From NCBI RefSeq assembly GCF_002831585.1, contig NZ_CP025113.1, forward strand, positions 434,001 to 498,000: a DNA stretch of 64,000 bases, read 5' to 3'. Below are positions 23,037 to 33,789 of this stretch, piece by piece; position 1 is the first letter of the stretch; every line of letters begins with the position of its first letter. A program made the position numbers and the translations under genes. The notes below the pieces were generated by a model. The model searched no databases. It was given only the letters and a program-made list of their open reading frames with translations, and had not been told where the DNA came from. The stretch is from Bradyrhizobium sp. SK17 (GTDB lineage: Bacteria; Pseudomonadota; Alphaproteobacteria; Rhizobiales; Xanthobacteraceae).

Positions 23037-24752
<1,716 letters not shown>

Positions 24753-24753
24753 G

Positions 24754-25308
24754 TCAGCCCCCAGTTTCAGCTAGCGCAGCCTGCGCGCGCACAATGGTGT
24801 CGTCGAAAATGCGATCGAGCCGCGGATTGATCCCCCGGCAACCGACAATGACTTTCTCGGCCCACGCCGCATAATCGGCGAGATCGTCGCGCTCGTCCTT
24901 GCTTGGATGCGGCACGATCCGCGCGCCGGTATTGCTGATCTTGTCGGCGATCTTGATCAGCTTTGCGGCGGAGGATTTGTGCGGGGCATCCTCGATCTGG
25001 CGTTGGCGCCGCTCGGCTTTCGGCAGGCTCATGTCGTCGGTACACTCGACCACGAGATCGGCAACCCGCCCGCTGAATTTCGTTGCGAGCTCTTCGCGCG
25101 TGGTCTCGGTGTCCTCGATGGTGTCGTGCAGCCACCCGGCCGCGACCAGCTCGGCATCAGCGCCGTCGGTCACCTCCGCGAGCAGGTTCGCGACCTCGGC
25201 GAGATGATTGATGTAGGGCTCATTGCCGCGCCCCTTGCGCGCCATCCCGTTGTGACGGCGCGCGGCAAGATCGGCGGCTGCGGAGATGAGGCGGATTGCG
25301 GGAAGCAT
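24754..25308 (-). CDS. HD-domain phosphohydrolase (MESH1/SpoT-hydrolase-like)
   Basis: 184 residues from ATG 25308. The HD metal motifs [15 protein letters not shown], an early His in [24 protein letters not shown] and [12 protein letters not shown] match the (p)ppGpp hydrolase-type HD fold (RelA/SpoT hydrolase or MESH1-like); no synthetase or TGS domain is present. It could hydrolyse ppGpp or a related nucleotide. It is placed between ureB and ureC with a one-base gap to ureC, so it will be expressed with urease. A nutritional link between nitrogen supply and alarmone turnover is tempting but unproven. Confidence 0.82.
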
Positions 25309-25348
25309 CGGGCTAACGCGCCTCCCCAGCCTTCTGCACCCGGGGCTT

Positions 25349-25600
25349 ACCCCTCTCCCCACCCCTCCCCCGACGCAAGTCGGGCCTGCCCGACTTGCGC
25401 AAATTTACGATGCGCAACCGGGGTAAACCCCGGTTGCGTTGGGGAGGGAGCCTGACGAGCGTGCACACCTCACTTGGCGTCGTTATCTTCACACCTTGCG
25501 TCACGGCTTCTCCTCACCACTGATATCAGATGTAAGGGACGCACCGGCGGAAGGGTTCCCTCCCCCTTGCGGGGGAGGGTTAGGGAGAGGGGTGCCGCTT
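25349..25600. repeat. Composite palindromic repeat with nested hairpins
   Basis: Left arm from 25349 (CCCCTCTCCCCACCCCTCCCC) and inverted right arm ending about 25600. The left arm is interrupted by two perfect hairpins: 25375-25398 (11-bp stem, 2-base loop) and 25414-25437 (10-bp stem, TAAA loop). The right half encodes the C-terminus of the DUF559 gene. Confidence 0.8.
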
Positions 25601-25955
25601 GCTCCGCTGCTTCCGCAATGCTGAGAGCCACTCCCTCAAGATTCCTCATCACGTCGTCGTTGGTAAAACGAAGCACACGATAGCCGCGCGACTCGAGCCA
25701 CGCATCCCGCCGCTCATCATGCCGGATGCGCTCCTCAAAATCGTGGCTCTCGCCGTCAAGCTCAACGACGAGCTTGCAGGCATGCGCGACAAAATCGGCG
25801 ATGTAACTGCCGATCGGCGCCTGACGGCGAAAGTTGAGACCGGCGAGACGATCGGCTTTCAGATGACGCCACAACAAGGTTTCCGCGCGTGTCATCGCAC
25901 GGCGGAGCTGCTTGGCGCGATCGCGCTGGATGTCGCTTACCTGAGTATGCGGCAT
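25470..25955 (-). CDS. DUF559 protein, Vsr/restriction-endonuclease-like fold
   Basis: 161 residues. Residues 10-115 are a DUF559 domain: RAMTRAETLLWRHLK, FRRQAPIGSYIADFV, LVVELDGESH and WLESRGYRVLRFTNDDV, which include the Asp and Glu-Leu-Asp pattern of PD-(D/E)XK-type nucleases related to very-short-patch repair enzymes. Residues from about 119 to the end are encoded by palindromic repeat DNA and are probably not part of the fold. The gene lies between copies of the same repeat family inside the urease operon, an unusual position that suggests it arrived together with the repeats. Biochemical activity of DUF559 proteins is not established. Confidence 0.82.
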   Translation of the reverse strand: MPHTQVSDIQRDRAKQLRRAMTRAETLLWRHLKADRLAGLNFRRQAPIGSYIADFVAHACKLVVELDGESHDFEERIRHDERRDAWLESRGYRVLRFTNDDVMRNLEGVALSIAEAAEQAAPLSLTLPRKGEGTLPPVRPLHLISVVRRSRDARCEDNDAK

Positions 25956-27586: not shown

Positions 27587-28281
27587 TCACAGCGCCATCT
27601 GGCGGCTGATCTCGGCGGGATCGAGGCTTGCGCGATCGCAGGCATATTTCACCGCGCCCCGGTCCATCACGGCAAAACTGTCGCCGAGTTCACAGGCAAA
27701 GTCGAGATATTGTTCGACCAGCACGATGGCGATGTTGCCGAGGTTGCGCAGATAGGAGATGGCGCGGCCGATATCCTTGATGATCGAGGGCTGGATGCCC
27801 TCGGTCGGCTCGTCGAGCAGCAGCAGTTTCGGCCGCATCACCAGCGCGCGACCGATCGCGAGCTGCTGCTGCTGGCCGCCGGAGAGGTCGCCGCCGCGGC
27901 GGCCGAGCATGGTCTCCAGCACCGGGAAAAGCGAAAACACGTCATCGGGGATGTTGCGGTCTTCTCGCTTCAAGGGCCGAAGCCGGTCTTCAAATTCTCT
28001 TCCACCGTCAGCAGCGGGAAAATCTCGCGGCCCTGCGGCACGAAGCCGATGCCGCGCCGCGCCCGCTCATAGGGCTTCAGCGCGGTGATGTCCTTGCCGT
28101 CGAAATTGATCGCGCCGGACGCGATCGGATACTGCCCGACCATGGCGCGCAAGAGCGAGGTCTTGCCGACGCCGTTGCGGCCGAGCACGCAGGTCACCTT
28201 GCCGGGCTCGGCGGTGAGCGAGACGCCGCGCAGCGCCTGCGCCGCGCCGTAATAGAGGTTGATATTGTCGATCTTCAGCAT
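27587..28281 (-). pseudogene. urtE: Urea ABC transporter ATP-binding protein UrtE, frameshifted
   Basis: Two fragments in different frames together make one UrtE. The first, 27970-28281, has the Walker A GRNGVGKTS and ends ENLKTGFGP-stop. The second, 27587-27973, resumes directly with LKREDRNIPDD and contains the signature LSGGQQQQLAIGRAL and Walker B LLLLDEPTEG. At the junction the minus strand reads GGCCCTTGAAG; one extra base, for example in the CCC run, would restore a continuous frame. Neither fragment can work alone as an ABC ATPase. This is either a real inactivating deletion, a sequencing or assembly error, or rescue by frameshifting. The rest of the operon is intact. Confidence 0.88.
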
Positions 28282-28284
28282 CGC

Positions 28285-29046
28285 CTAGCGCCCCAGATAC
28301 ACTTCGACCACCCGCTCGTTCGACGACACCTGGTCGATCGAGCCTTCGGCGAGCACCGAGCCCTCATGCAGGCAAGTCACCTTGACGCCAAGTTCGCGCA
28401 CGAAGGTCATGTCATGCTCGACCACCATGATGGTGTGATTCTTGTTGATCTCCTTCAGCAGCTCCGCGGTCAGATGGGTCTCGACGTCGGTCATCCCGGC
28501 AACCGGCTCGTCGACCAGCAGTACCTTGGGATCCTGGGCCAGCAGCATGCCGATCTCGAGCCACTGCTTCTGACCATGCGACAGGCTGCCGGCGAGGCGG
28601 TTGCGCGCATCGGTCAGGCGGATGGTCTCCAGCACCTTGTCGATCCGCTCGGACTCGGCCCTGCTGCCGCGCCAGAACAACGTGCCGCGCACCGAATGAT
28701 CGACGTTGAGCGCGAGCAGGAGATTGTCCTGCACGGTCTGGCTCTCGAACACCGTCGGCTTCTGGAACTTGCGGCCAATGCCGAGCTCGGCGATCCGGGT
28801 CTCGTCGAGGCGGGTCAGGTCGACGGTGCCATCGAACAGCACGGTGCCCTCGTCCGGCTTGGTCTTGCCGGTGATGATGTCCATCATCGTGGTCTTGCCG
28901 GCGCCGTTCGGGCCGATGATGGCGCGCATCTCGCCAGGCGCCAGCGTCAGCGACAGATTGTTGATGGCATGGAAGCCGTCGAACGAGACGTGCACGCCGT
29001 CGAGATAGAGCATCGCCGAGGTGGCGCGGGTATCCATCACGTTCAT
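28285..29046 (-). CDS. urtD: Urea ABC transporter ATP-binding protein UrtD
   Basis: 253 residues. Walker A GPNGAGKTT, signature LSHGQKQWLEIGMLLAQDPK, Walker B VLLVDEPVAGM and the switch His in VVEHDMTF are intact. The sequence is of the branched-chain amino-acid (LivG-like) type as used for urea. It would pair with UrtE to power the UrtBC permease. It is four bases after urtC and three bases before urtE. Because urtE is broken, whether UrtD can act as a homodimer decides if uptake still works. Confidence 0.95.
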   Translation of the reverse strand: MNVMDTRATSAMLYLDGVHVSFDGFHAINNLSLTLAPGEMRAIIGPNGAGKTTMMDIITGKTKPDEGTVLFDGTVDLTRLDETRIAELGIGRKFQKPTVFESQTVQDNLLLALNVDHSVRGTLFWRGSRAESERIDKVLETIRLTDARNRLAGSLSHGQKQWLEIGMLLAQDPKVLLVDEPVAGMTDVETHLTAELLKEINKNHTIMVVEHDMTFVRELGVKVTCLHEGSVLAEGSIDQVSSNERVVEVYLGR

Positions 29047-29050
29047 CCGC

Positions 29051-30220
29051 CTACTCCGCCGGGTTCGGTGCGCCGACGCCGTCTTCGCGCGCAGCGCTGT
29101 CAGCGTCGGGAGAGCCGTTCCTCGCCTTCGACGTCTCCCACCAGCTGTTGAAGGTGCCGACGATGCCCTTCGGCAAGAGCAGCGTCACCAGGATGAACAG
29201 CGCGCCGAGCATGAACAGCCAATACGGGGCGAGCGGCCCCGAGGTGAAGAACGTCTTGGCGTAGTTGACGACGACGGCGCCGAGCGCGGCGCCGATCAGC
29301 GTGCCGCGGCCGCCGACCGCGACCCAGATCACCGCCTCGATCGAATTGCCCGGCGCGAATTCGCTTGGATTGATGATGCCGACCTGCGGCACATAGAGCG
29401 CGCCGGCGACGCCGGCCATGCAGGCCGACAGCGTGAACACGAACAGCTTGTAGGACTCGACGCGATAGCCGAGGAAGCGGGTGCGGCTTTCGGCGTCGCG
29501 CACCGCGATCAGAACCTTGCCGAGCTTCGAGGTCACGATCGCGCGGCAGATCAGGAACGCGATGATCAGCGCCAGGCAGCTCAGCAGGAACAGCGCGGCA
29601 CGGGTGCCTTCGGCCTGCACGTTGAAGCCGAGGATGTCCTTGAAGTCGGTCAGGCCGTTGTTGCCGCCGAAGCCGAAATCATTGCGGAAGAACGCCAGCA
29701 GCAGCGCGTAGGTCATCGCCTGCGTGATGATCGACAGATAGACGCCGGTGACGCGCGAGCGGAAGGCGAGCCAACCGAAGCAGAAGGCGAGCACGCCCGG
29801 CACCAGCAGCACCATCAGCGCCGCGAAGGCGAATTTGTCGAAGCCGTACCAGTACCAGGGCAGCCTGTCCCAGTTCAGGAACACCATGAAGTCGGGCAGG
29901 ATCGGGTTGCCGTAGACGCCGCGGCTGCCGATCTGCCGCATCAGGTACATGCCCATCGCGTAGCCGCCGAGCGCGAAGAACGCGCCGTGGCCGAGCGAGA
30001 GGATGCCGCAATAACCCCAGATCAGATCGATCGAGAGCGCGAGGATGGCGTAGCAGACATATTTGCCCCACAGCGCCACCAGATAGGTCGGCACCTGGAA
30101 CATCGAGCCCTGCGGCAGCAGCAGGTTCGACAGCGGGATCAGTACGCCGAGCGCGGCGACGATCAGCACGAACGCGGTCGCGGCACGGTCGAGCGAACGG
30201 GTGAGGATGTGCGGCGTCAT
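29051..30220 (-). CDS. urtC: Urea ABC transporter permease UrtC
   Basis: 389 residues with about ten membrane helices, LivM-type. Contains YCGILSLGHGAFFALGGYAMG, TDFKDILGFNVQ and WVAVGGRGTLIGAALGA, all typical of UrtC/LivM. It forms the inner-membrane channel with UrtB. The start codon overlaps the urtB stop by four bases (ATGA), showing translational coupling. Confidence 0.95.
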   Translation of the reverse strand: MTPHILTRSLDRAATAFVLIVAALGVLIPLSNLLLPQGSMFQVPTYLVALWGKYVCYAILALSIDLIWGYCGILSLGHGAFFALGGYAMGMYLMRQIGSRGVYGNPILPDFMVFLNWDRLPWYWYGFDKFAFAALMVLLVPGVLAFCFGWLAFRSRVTGVYLSIITQAMTYALLLAFFRNDFGFGGNNGLTDFKDILGFNVQAEGTRAALFLLSCLALIIAFLICRAIVTSKLGKVLIAVRDAESRTRFLGYRVESYKLFVFTLSACMAGVAGALYVPQVGIINPSEFAPGNSIEAVIWVAVGGRGTLIGAALGAVVVNYAKTFFTSGPLAPYWLFMLGALFILVTLLLPKGIVGTFNSWWETSKARNGSPDADSAAREDGVGAPNPAE

Positions 30221-31827
30221 GCTTCCACCGCCCGGCCCTTGAGCGCGAACAGGCCGCGCGGCCGTTTCTGGATGAACAGGATGATCAGCACCAGGATCGC
30301 GATCTTGCCGAGCACCGCACCTGCCACCGGCTCGAGGAACTTGTTGGCGATCCCGAGCGTGAAGGCGCCGACCAGGGTGCCCCAGAGATTTCCGACACCG
30401 CCGAACACCACGACCATGAAGCTATCGATGATGTAGCTCTGGCCGAGATTCGGGCTGACATTGTCGATCTGCGACAGCGCGACGCCGGCGATGCCGGCGA
30501 TCCCCGAGCCGAGGCCGAAGGTCAGCGCGTCGACCCGCGAGGTGGCGATGCCCATCGAGGCCGCCATGCGGCGGTTCTGGGTCACCGCGCGCATCTCGAG
30601 GCCGAGCGCGGTGTAGCGCAGCATCGCGAGCAGGATGGCGAACACCGCGAGCGTGAAGCAGAGGATCCAGAGCCGGTTATAGGTGATGGTGATCTGGCCG
30701 AGCTCGAAGGCGCCGCTCATCCAGGAGGGGTTGCCGACCTCGCGGTTGGTCGGGCCGAATGCGGTGCGGACCGCCTGCTGCAACACCAGCGACAGGCCCC
30801 AGGTCGCGAGCAGCGTCTCCAGCGGACGGCCGTAGAGGAAGCGGATGATGGTGCGCTCGATCACGACGCCGATGGCGCCCGCGACCACGAAGGCGAGCGG
30901 CACCGCGATCAAGAGCGAATAGTCGAACAGTGCGGGATAGCGGGTGCGGATCACCTCCTGCACCACGAAGGTGGTGTAGGCCCCGAGCATCACCATCTCG
31001 CCATGCGCCATGTTGATGACGCCCATCACGCCGAAGGTGATGGCAAGACCGATCGCGGCCAGCAGCAGCACCGAACCGAGCGACAGGCCGTACCAGGCGT
31101 TCTGCACCATCGACCACATCGCAAGATTGCTCTGGATCGAGGACACCGCACTTGCGGCTGCTTTGGCCACCAGCGGCGGCTGGTCGCCGAGCCCGGTGAG
31201 CAGCGCCAGCGCTTCCTGGTCGCCGCGCGCCTTGATCACGGCAACCGCATCGAGCTTGTCGCTGTCGGATGCATCCGACTTGAACAGGATGATGGCGGCG
31301 CGCGCCTCGGCGAAGGCCTGCTTGATCGACTTGACGCTCTCCTTGGCGAGCGCGCTTTCCACCGTCGGCAGCAGGTTTTCCTCGTGGCTCTTGAACACCG
31401 ACTGTGCCGCGGCGAGCCGCTTGGCCGGATCTGACGACAGCAGCGTCAGGCCGCCGAGCGCGGCTTCCACGGTGCGGCGCAAGCGGTTGTTGAGGCGCAC
31501 GGCGGCGGCATTGTCCGGCAGCTTGTCGACGGCCGCGCCAGTGGCGGCGTCGATGATCTTGCCGTCGGTCTGCGTGATGAAGACCTTCTTGCTGTCCGGA
31601 TCGGCCGACAGCCGGCCGTCCTGCAGCGCGCCGATGATGCGCGGAGCCAGCGCGTTGCCCGATGCAGCGACTTCGCCGATCGCGGCCTCGGTGTCGGAGA
31701 ACTCGTCATTGGCGAATTTGGCGACTGAATCCTCGAACGGGCCAGCCAGCGCCGGCACGACAAGGCAGCTCAGCAGCAGGATCGAGAGAAACAGCGTACG
31801 AAAGCGATCAATGCAAATGGCAAACAC
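30217..31827 (-). CDS. urtB: Urea ABC transporter permease UrtB
   Basis: 536 residues. A signal peptide-like N-terminus (residues 7-28, ending PALAG) and a soluble helical region (30-210) precede about eight LivH-type membrane helices with MGVINMAHGEMVMLGAYTTF and VVFGGVGNLWGTLVGAF. The long periplasmic N-terminal domain is characteristic of UrtB and absent in ordinary LivH. Transports urea inward with UrtC. Confidence 0.94.
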   Translation of the reverse strand: MFAICIDRFRTLFLSILLLSCLVVPALAGPFEDSVAKFANDEFSDTEAAIGEVAASGNALAPRIIGALQDGRLSADPDSKKVFITQTDGKIIDAATGAAVDKLPDNAAAVRLNNRLRRTVEAALGGLTLLSSDPAKRLAAAQSVFKSHEENLLPTVESALAKESVKSIKQAFAEARAAIILFKSDASDSDKLDAVAVIKARGDQEALALLTGLGDQPPLVAKAAASAVSSIQSNLAMWSMVQNAWYGLSLGSVLLLAAIGLAITFGVMGVINMAHGEMVMLGAYTTFVVQEVIRTRYPALFDYSLLIAVPLAFVVAGAIGVVIERTIIRFLYGRPLETLLATWGLSLVLQQAVRTAFGPTNREVGNPSWMSGAFELGQITITYNRLWILCFTLAVFAILLAMLRYTALGLEMRAVTQNRRMAASMGIATSRVDALTFGLGSGIAGIAGVALSQIDNVSPNLGQSYIIDSFMVVVFGGVGNLWGTLVGAFTLGIANKFLEPVAGAVLGKIAILVLIILFIQKRPRGLFALKGRAVEA

Positions 31828-31929: not shown

Positions 31930-33258
31930 TTAGGAGCCCTGGCCGCCGCACTTGTTGGTCTTGGTGTTGTAGTTGCCGCACTTCTTGCCGACCCAATCGC
32001 CGATCAGGTCCTTGGAGCCCTCGAGCTCCTTCGACCAGGCGTCGCCGGCCACCAGGCCCGGGGTCTTCCAGACCACGTCGAACTGGCCGTTGCCCTTGAT
32101 CTCGCCGATGAACACCGGCTTGGTGATGTGGTGGTTCGGCAGCATCTTGGCCACGCCGCCGGTCAGGTTCGGCGTCTCGATGCCCGGAAGAGCGTCGATC
32201 ACCTTGTCCGGATCGGTCGACTTCGCCTTCTCGACCGCCTTCACCCACATGTTGAAGCCGATGTAGTGCGCCTCCATCGGATCGTTGGTCACGCGCTTCG
32301 GGTTCTTGGTGTAGGCCTGCCACTCCTTGATGAACTTCTCGTTCGCAGGGGTCTTGATCGACTCGAAGTAGTTCCAGGCGGCGAGATGGCCGACCAGCGG
32401 CTTGGTGTCGATGCCGGCGAGCTCTTCTTCGCCGACCGAGAACGCAACCACCGGGATGTCGGTCGCCTTGATGCCCTGGTTGCCGAGCTCCTTGTAGAAC
32501 GGAACGTTGGCGTCGCCGTTGATGGTCGAGACCACCGCGGTCTTCTTGCCGGCCGAGCCGAACTTCTTGATGTCGGCGACGATCGTCTGCCAGTCGGAGT
32601 GACCGAACGGCGTGTAGTTGATCATGATGTCGTCCTGGGCGACGCCCTTCGACTTCAGATAGGCTTCCAGGATCTTGTTGGTGGTGCGCGGATAGACGTA
32701 GTCGGTGCCGGCCAGCACCCAGCGCTTCACCTTTTCTTCCTTCATCAGATAGTCGACCGCGGGGATCGCCTGCTGGTTCGGCGCCGCACCCGTGTAGAAC
32801 ACGTTGCGCTCGGACTCCTCGCCCTCATACTGCACCGGATAGAACAGGATGTTGTTCAGCTCCTTGAACACCGGGAGCACGGACTTGCGCGACACCGAGG
32901 TCCAGCAGCCGAACACCACAGCAACCTTGTCCTTGGTGATCAGCTCGCGGGCCTTTTCGGCGAACAGCGGCCAGTTCGATGCGGGGTCGACCACGACCGG
33001 CTCGAGCTTCTTGCCGAGCACGCCGCCCTTCTTGTTCTGCTCGTCGATCAGGAAAAGGATGGTGTCTTTCAGGGTGGTTTCGCTGATCGCCATGGTGCCC
33101 GACAGCGAGTGAAGGATACCAACCTTGATGGTGTCGTCGGCCGCTTGCGCGGGCGCGAAGGACGAGGACGCAGCCAGACCTAAAACCAGGCCGGCCGTCG
33201 CCGCGAGCGCGCGGCGGCGGGTCAACGTCGCTATTCCGTGAGTAAGCTGAGTAAGCAT
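31930..33258 (-). CDS. urtA: Urea ABC transporter substrate-binding protein UrtA
   Basis: 442 residues from ATG 33258; the N-terminus MLTQLTHGIATLTRRRALAAT is a signal peptide with a twin-arginine-like TRRR motif and a cleavage region PAQAAD. The mature protein shows IKVGILHSLSGTMAISET, VFGCWTSVSRKSVLPVF and FYPVQYEGEE, hallmarks of UrtA rather than LivJ. It binds urea in the periplasm. It is the first gene downstream of a perfect sigma-54 promoter. Confidence 0.96.
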   Translation of the reverse strand: MLTQLTHGIATLTRRRALAATAGLVLGLAASSSFAPAQAADDTIKVGILHSLSGTMAISETTLKDTILFLIDEQNKKGGVLGKKLEPVVVDPASNWPLFAEKARELITKDKVAVVFGCWTSVSRKSVLPVFKELNNILFYPVQYEGEESERNVFYTGAAPNQQAIPAVDYLMKEEKVKRWVLAGTDYVYPRTTNKILEAYLKSKGVAQDDIMINYTPFGHSDWQTIVADIKKFGSAGKKTAVVSTINGDANVPFYKELGNQGIKATDIPVVAFSVGEEELAGIDTKPLVGHLAAWNYFESIKTPANEKFIKEWQAYTKNPKRVTNDPMEAHYIGFNMWVKAVEKAKSTDPDKVIDALPGIETPNLTGGVAKMLPNHHITKPVFIGEIKGNGQFDVVWKTPGLVAGDAWSKELEGSKDLIGDWVGKKCGNYNTKTNKCGGQGS

Positions 33259-33331
33259 GAAATGTCGTCTCCCTGACGCAGGCGTGAACGCTTGCGAAAC
33301 GGCCGCATGGCCGCCTGCGGTTAAGGGAATC

Positions 33332-33346
33332 GCAAGAACTGTGCCA
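33332..33346 (-). promoter_or_regulatory. Sigma-54 (RpoN) promoter for the urt-ure block
   Basis: Minus strand reads TGGCACAGTTCTTGC: a perfect TGGCAC-N5-TTGC -24/-12 element, 74 bases before the urtA start. Consistent with nitrogen-starvation (NtrC/RpoN) control of urea uptake, as known in related systems. Confidence 0.85.
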
Positions 33347-33363
33347 CGGTGCGTGGGCACCGT
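33346..33363. promoter_or_regulatory. Palindrome abutting the sigma-54 promoter
   Basis: ACGGTGC (33346-33352), spacer GTGG, GCACCGT (33357-33363). Exact 7-bp arms. It touches the -24 element, so a bound protein could block polymerase. Arm order differs from the NtrC consensus GCACC-N-GGTGC. Confidence 0.45.
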
Positions 33364-33789
33364 AAGCCGATGAACCAGCAGGATAATTTCAAGGGTTCCG
33401 GGCAAATACGGAACGCGACTGCCCAATCATTGGGCCGCTTGCTTGACCGCCGAAAGAGCAGTCAGATTAATTTATGAGCAAAATTGACGCGCTGGCTAAA
33501 TTTCCGGCATCCATTTGAGACAGTTTGCGCGATGGTTCGGCGGACTTCACGCACCAATCCGCCGATTCCACCTTGAAACCGCCCAGTTCCTGGTCCATAT
33601 GCTGCTGATGCCCGCGAGAGTCGCGGTGCCTTCGCGAGCTGCGTGTTCAAGCTGCCCCAAGCGGCTTCTGGCTCGCCTTTCAGCTAACCCAGCTAGACGC
33701 CCCAGACACGCGGGTGTCCCGAATGCCTTCATGCGCTTCCGGCCGATTGTGGCCCGGACGATGACGGCTTTTATGGAAAGAACCACCTT
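33364..33789. other. Intergenic region and helicase leader; no gene seen
   Basis: About 425 bases with no convincing coding frame. Its left part is upstream of the urt promoter and may hold activator sites; its right part is the leader of the DEAD-box helicase. A long leader would fit post-transcriptional or cold control, but no known RNA motif was recognised. Confidence 0.4.

Follow-up and report, generated by a model that had tools for sequence, protein, structure and literature searches.

A one-base frameshift in urtE of Bradyrhizobium sp. SK17 is probably a consensus error of the assembly

Background

UrtE, described by the model TIGR03410, is the second of two ATP-binding subunits in UrtABCDE, an ABC importer of urea. 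The urtE of SK17 resembles this system in that both of its pieces match adjoining stretches of the model, and in its setting, a urtABCDE gene order close to urease; it differs in that the frame is broken by one missing base and neither piece reaches the cut-off of the model.

Frame breaks of this kind are also described as artefacts of long-read sequencing. According to the available text of the Homopolish paper, the systematic nanopore errors that remain uncorrected are mainly homopolymer indels, which shift reading frames (PMC8011154). In the accessible part of the Kastor paper, deletion errors are linked with homopolymers two to eight bases long, most of them following runs of four to five; A/T runs led and G/C runs accounted for about half as many (PMC12007338). 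We found no literature joining Bradyrhizobium, urtE and a frameshift.

The SK17 genome comprises 8.29 Mb in two contigs. The DNA analysed here (the window) is a stretch of 64,000 nucleotides, positions 434001-498000 of contig C1; coordinates below 64,000 given without a contig prefix refer to the window. We consider the break in urtE to be a consensus error of the assembly and the gene to be probably whole (probability about 0.93). The split is a feature of the assembled sequence and very probably not of the organism.

Results and discussion

The urtE gene as assembled

In the assembly, urtE is read on the minus strand in two frames of 103 and 128 codons, which meet at a CCC run that is one base short. 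The 5' piece (27970-28281, minus strand) matches positions 1-100 of TIGR03410 and contains the Walker A motif (GRNGVGKTS). The 3' piece (27587-27973, minus strand) matches positions 104-229 of the 230 in the model and contains the ABC signature (LSGGQ) and Walker B (LLLLDEP). The pieces score 185.8 and 141.0 bits respectively, and the curated cut-off of 285.8 bits is reached by neither. The two open reading frames are neighbouring parts of a single gene and are not paired by chance.

The junction (27970-27976, minus strand) reads GGC CCT TGA. The C run (27976-27974) is one base shorter than in relatives and is followed by a TTG (27973-27971), which overlaps the TGA stop (27972-27970). The preliminary description had proposed a one-base split of urtE with Walker A in one frame (27970-28281), the signature and Walker B in the other (27587-27973) and a TTG restart overlapping the first stop; both open reading frames exist as described, and their translations and adjacent model matches bear this out.

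The surrounding urea genes

The urtABCDE genes lie in this order on the minus strand, with urtE after urtD and the block upstream of urease alpha. All the other genes are unbroken and exceed their NCBIfam cut-offs, in agreement with the earlier view that the block is otherwise intact: urtD (28285-29046; TIGR03411, 385.1 bits against 304.1), urtC (29051-30220; TIGR03408, 441.7 against 296.2), urtB (30217-31827; TIGR03409, 436.8 against 250.3) and urtA (31930-33426; TIGR03407, 572.4 against 492.75), all on the minus strand. The starts of urtA and urtB are not settled; urtB has an N-terminal extension in open frame. The urease alpha gene, ureC (23037-24752, minus strand), is the only match in the genome above the TIGR01792 cut-off, and the urt cluster of the window stands beside it.

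Two other frames lie in this region. The open frame at 24754-25362 (minus strand), adjoining ureC, matches positions 2-119 of TIGR00691 (RelA/SpoT) with 65.3 bits against a cut-off of 499.2; the matched N-terminal part is presumably the HD-hydrolase end only. A DUF559-type gene lies between urtE and ureC at 25470-25955 (minus strand; NF007294, 94 bits against a cut-off of 218).

urtE in related genomes

A DNA match to urtE at an E value of 0.001 or better is present in all 265 genomes searched in the genus, SK17 included; a few of these matches are weak and perhaps represent paralogues only. The 29 best DNA matches among the 264 other genomes have 91.8 to 96.0% DNA identity, and every one of them has an open urtE of 231 codons which is one base longer than that of SK17. 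The comparison with urtE of related strains that had been suggested as a check thus finds the gene open in 29 of 29. In the alignment of 30 rows, SK17 alone has a gap. It occupies a single column, 309 of 696, which the aligner puts in the C run, on the third base of a proline codon.

A search through UrtC gives a similar picture. UrtE is open in 78 of 80 named loci reached in this way, some of which come from the same genomes as the 29 relatives (e.g. L004 and L178). Of the other two, L189 is cut by a contig end after UrtE residue 201 and L207 has no UrtE match. The 29 relatives and the 80 named loci therefore give no sign of the split being kept in the genus as sampled. The closest named relatives by UrtC are Bradyrhizobium, the closest being Bradyrhizobium tropiciagri SEMIA 6148 (98%). 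The named loci, a collection which may leave out the genome of the window itself, include no further assembly of the strain.

Conservation also bears on whether the split could be functional. Judging by the letters only, a tRNA on CCU that slipped by -1 would pair again with CCC and be in the correct frame, and one protein could then be made by ribosomal slippage before the UGA; alternatively, two pieces could be made by stop-restart at UUGA, since the TTG overlaps the TGA. However, the split is absent from all 29 relatives examined and has thus not been maintained. For the 86 bases running downstream from 27975, the predicted RNA fold does not improve on that of shuffled sequences (z -0.93; 37 of 200 at least as good) in a calculation that does not cover pseudoknots. 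Programmed frameshifting and two-piece translation are rejected mainly on conservation, the fold giving no help, and we regard either as scarcely credible.

Absence of decay

SK17 has five substitutions in urtE which are absent from the 29 relatives, two upstream and three downstream of the break. All five are at codon position 3 and no amino acid is unique to SK17; when the gene is read across the gap column, every amino acid is present in at least one of the 29 relatives. With changes at third positions only, there is no sign of ongoing pseudogene decay in urtE. The frame appears as clean after the break as before it, so that the break would be either very recent or not real.

The first of these alternatives is a real, very recent one-base deletion which inactivated urtE in the sequenced strain or culture, with urea entering through one of two other urt-type importers (see below) or by diffusion. 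The split is present in the assembly, and loss of this urtE could be tolerated given two further UrtE proteins above cut-off near formamidase-like and aliphatic-amidase-like genes. Against this, urtE, urtABCD and ureC show no other sign of decay, and the assembly carries an excess of the same change and contradicts itself at the contig ends, as set out in the following sections. We judge a real deletion very unlikely.

A consensus error is strongly favoured by the open urtE of relatives, the lack of decay, the excess of deletions at G/C runs and the disagreement between copies at the contig ends. One base would have been lost from the C run in urtE during assembly, probably from long reads, and the sequence not fully polished; the real chromosome would most likely carry an ordinary urtE of 231 codons.

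Short indels across the assembly

Short indels were counted in aligned sequence from SK17 (800 kb) and five relatives: G126 (800 kb), G239 (600 kb), and G146, G038 and G219 (200 kb each). An event was a clean indel of 1-2 bases in one genome against every other covering genome, of which there had to be at least two. SK17 has 49 such genome-specific indels in 451,225 bases; the relatives have 27 in 491,093 (G126), 16 in 493,134 (G239), 0 in 183,377 (G146), 5 in 191,276 (G038) and 10 in 119,470 (G219).

When the same codon-wobble phase is required on both sides, 11 events remain in SK17 and 0, 1, 0, 2 and 2 in G126, G239, G146, G038 and G219 (11 against 5; binomial P 1.5e-4). One-base deletions at G/C runs make up nine of the SK17 events and one of those in relatives (binomial P 1.7e-5). 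This set includes events outside genes on both sides: two of the 11 in SK17 (C1 positions 694639 and 797161) lie at one extremity, start or end, of the longest open reading frame of the relatives, and at least one control event, G038 98383, also falls outside a gene on our reading of the letters, shortly ahead of urtE.

A second filter, applied alike to the six genomes, requires a reading frame that the mapped relatives all have in common, with looser wobble thresholds; the event at 899944 is lost and that at 985451 gained. It leaves nine frame-breaking indels in the 451,225 bases of SK17 and one in the 1,478,350 bases of the five relatives; the latter is an insertion, in G038. Each of the nine in SK17 removes a single base and has a G/C run of at least three at the gap or no more than ~6 bases away, the run being the longest one in that range. 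The deletion at 985451 may sit in a GCC repeat next to CCC.

The genes hit by the nine deletions are unrelated to one another: urtE, a GCS2 glutamate-cysteine ligase, an Alph_Pro_TM protein, a FecR/cadherin-like protein, a DUF3108 protein, a LivF-like ABC ATPase, a methyltransferase-like protein, a GGDEF/EAL protein and a further frame of 190 amino acids. For the LivF-like event (909157), the shared frame reported is one of 109 amino acids; the break in the gene itself was seen separately. The split of the GCS2 gene, at C1:532908-533839, stems from the loss of one base next to a GGG run, and no second GCS2 match was found in the SK17 genome. We recognise none of the nine genes as strictly essential, and viability is therefore no proof of error.

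Further splits occur outside this count. The LivF-like gene (C1:908857-909506) and a LivH-like gene (C1:912581-913410) belong to one branched-chain-type ABC cluster and are each split in two frames; in each, one base looks to be missing from a C/G run. The LivH-like split was missed by the indel census. Another LivH/UrtB-like gene, at C1:3397981-3398810, is matched as two overlapping pieces in different open frames.

The excess in SK17 shows up in frame-breaking indels and with more sequence. An earlier, smaller census shows no clear excess of short indels overall (4.7 per 100 kb in SK17 against 3.8, 10.3, 0.0, 2.6 and 1.6 in relatives). Two cruder censuses mixed in antisense open reading frames and gene ends, and the indel census took their place. 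Counted from split tblastn hits, 15 of 142 genes are split in SK17 against 9 of 143 in G126; by open reading frame status, there are 3-5 frameshift calls in SK17 against 1-3 per relative, while internal-stop calls are no rarer in relatives. Part of the SK17 excess could be real, since short indels peculiar to one genome occur in the relatives too (27, 16, 0, 5 and 10 against 49) and one relative exceeds SK17 per base in the smaller census (10.3 against 4.7 per 100 kb).

A mutator strain is not indicated by mutS, the one gene considered in this respect, which is open over its model (852.1 bits). The rpoC gene is also open, a point against the error reading.

The assembly thus has an excess of one-base deletions at G/C runs in genes. 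These resemble the long-read homopolymer errors described in the available texts (PMC8011154, PMC12007338) in being short indels at runs that split genes; they differ from the errors in the accessible part of the Kastor paper in that the affected runs are G/C, whereas A/T runs led there (PMC12007338). The gap in urtE is of this kind: it is one base at a homopolymer, it is absent from 29 relatives, and the same defect is in excess over controls elsewhere. The urtE site would accordingly be read as one of these errors, and the sequencing as probably long-read. If the rate is even, nine in 451 kb would correspond to of the order of 150 frameshifts in 8.3 Mb.

The same DNA assembled twice

The assembly also contradicts itself where DNA is present twice. 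The first 4,000 bases of C1 match C1 7979390-7983400 with 99.4% identity, 17 gap openings and no mismatches. Single bases in G/C runs or next to them account for many of the differences, and a few gaps span 2 to 5 bases. Two true copies are very unlikely to differ by indels alone, so at least one copy must be wrong.

A class I tRNA-synthetase gene illustrates this. In a search with tRNA-synt_1 it gives three frameshifted matches at the start of C1 and one open match near the end, where it lies in an open frame of 1017 codons. From its sequence, the broken gene is probably ileS.

The repeated ends have the look expected of an untrimmed circular overlap, which they probably represent. Matches to an ABC gene at ~17.2 kb and ~7996.6 kb score equally in both places (118.5 and 100.2 bits); this suggests that the overlap continues in the direction of the contig end, and its length would be roughly 24 kb. 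As this gene, ~17 kb from the contig start, scores identically in both copies, the overlap is not wrong everywhere. The copy comparison covers 4 kb at the contig ends rather than urtE; sequence at the edges of a contig can be poorer than that inside it, and the disagreement need not hold at 462 kb, where urtE lies.

The preliminary description had noted that, if the break is an error, the genome needs correcting. The relatives, the census and the contig-end disagreement all favour this branch. The SK17 genome needs re-polishing, and its contig-end overlap resolving, before any claim of gene loss is made; searches of this assembly for split genes or odd biology will keep meeting such frameshifts.

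Other urt-type clusters

Two further UrtE proteins, at contig positions 4303141 and 4336504, score above the cut-off of 285.8 bits (327.8 and 301.1 bits). The first belongs to a cluster at C1 4298701-4303827, in which UrtA (543.7 bits), UrtB (402.2) and UrtE (327.8) are all over their cut-offs; open frames stand in the places of urtC and urtD, assigned by position, and a formamidase-like gene follows. The second belongs to a cluster at ~4330-4337 kb, in which UrtB (314.2 bits) and UrtE (301.1) are above cut-off, the UrtA-like proteins are below it (424.8 and 366.5 against 492.75) and an aliphatic-amidase-like gene adjoins. Both clusters have open frames in all five urt places. The two enzyme names are our own assignments from the sequences. 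Urea and short amides are candidate cargoes of these clusters.

The preliminary description had held that a real break must leave urea uptake dependent on a UrtD homodimer, another ATPase or frameshifting. This is not supported: the split is found in 0 of 29 relatives examined, the fold offers no support, and the two further UrtE proteins in open clusters make 'must' too strong even for a real break. A real deletion might also leave the urease-linked importer borrowing its ATPase from one of these paralogous clusters (UrtE at 4303141 or 4336504); this would show subunit exchange between importers, but we consider it very improbable.

The cluster at ~4330-4337 kb, the third of urt type in the genome, is headed by its two UrtA-like binding proteins in tandem (C1:4330472-4333553).
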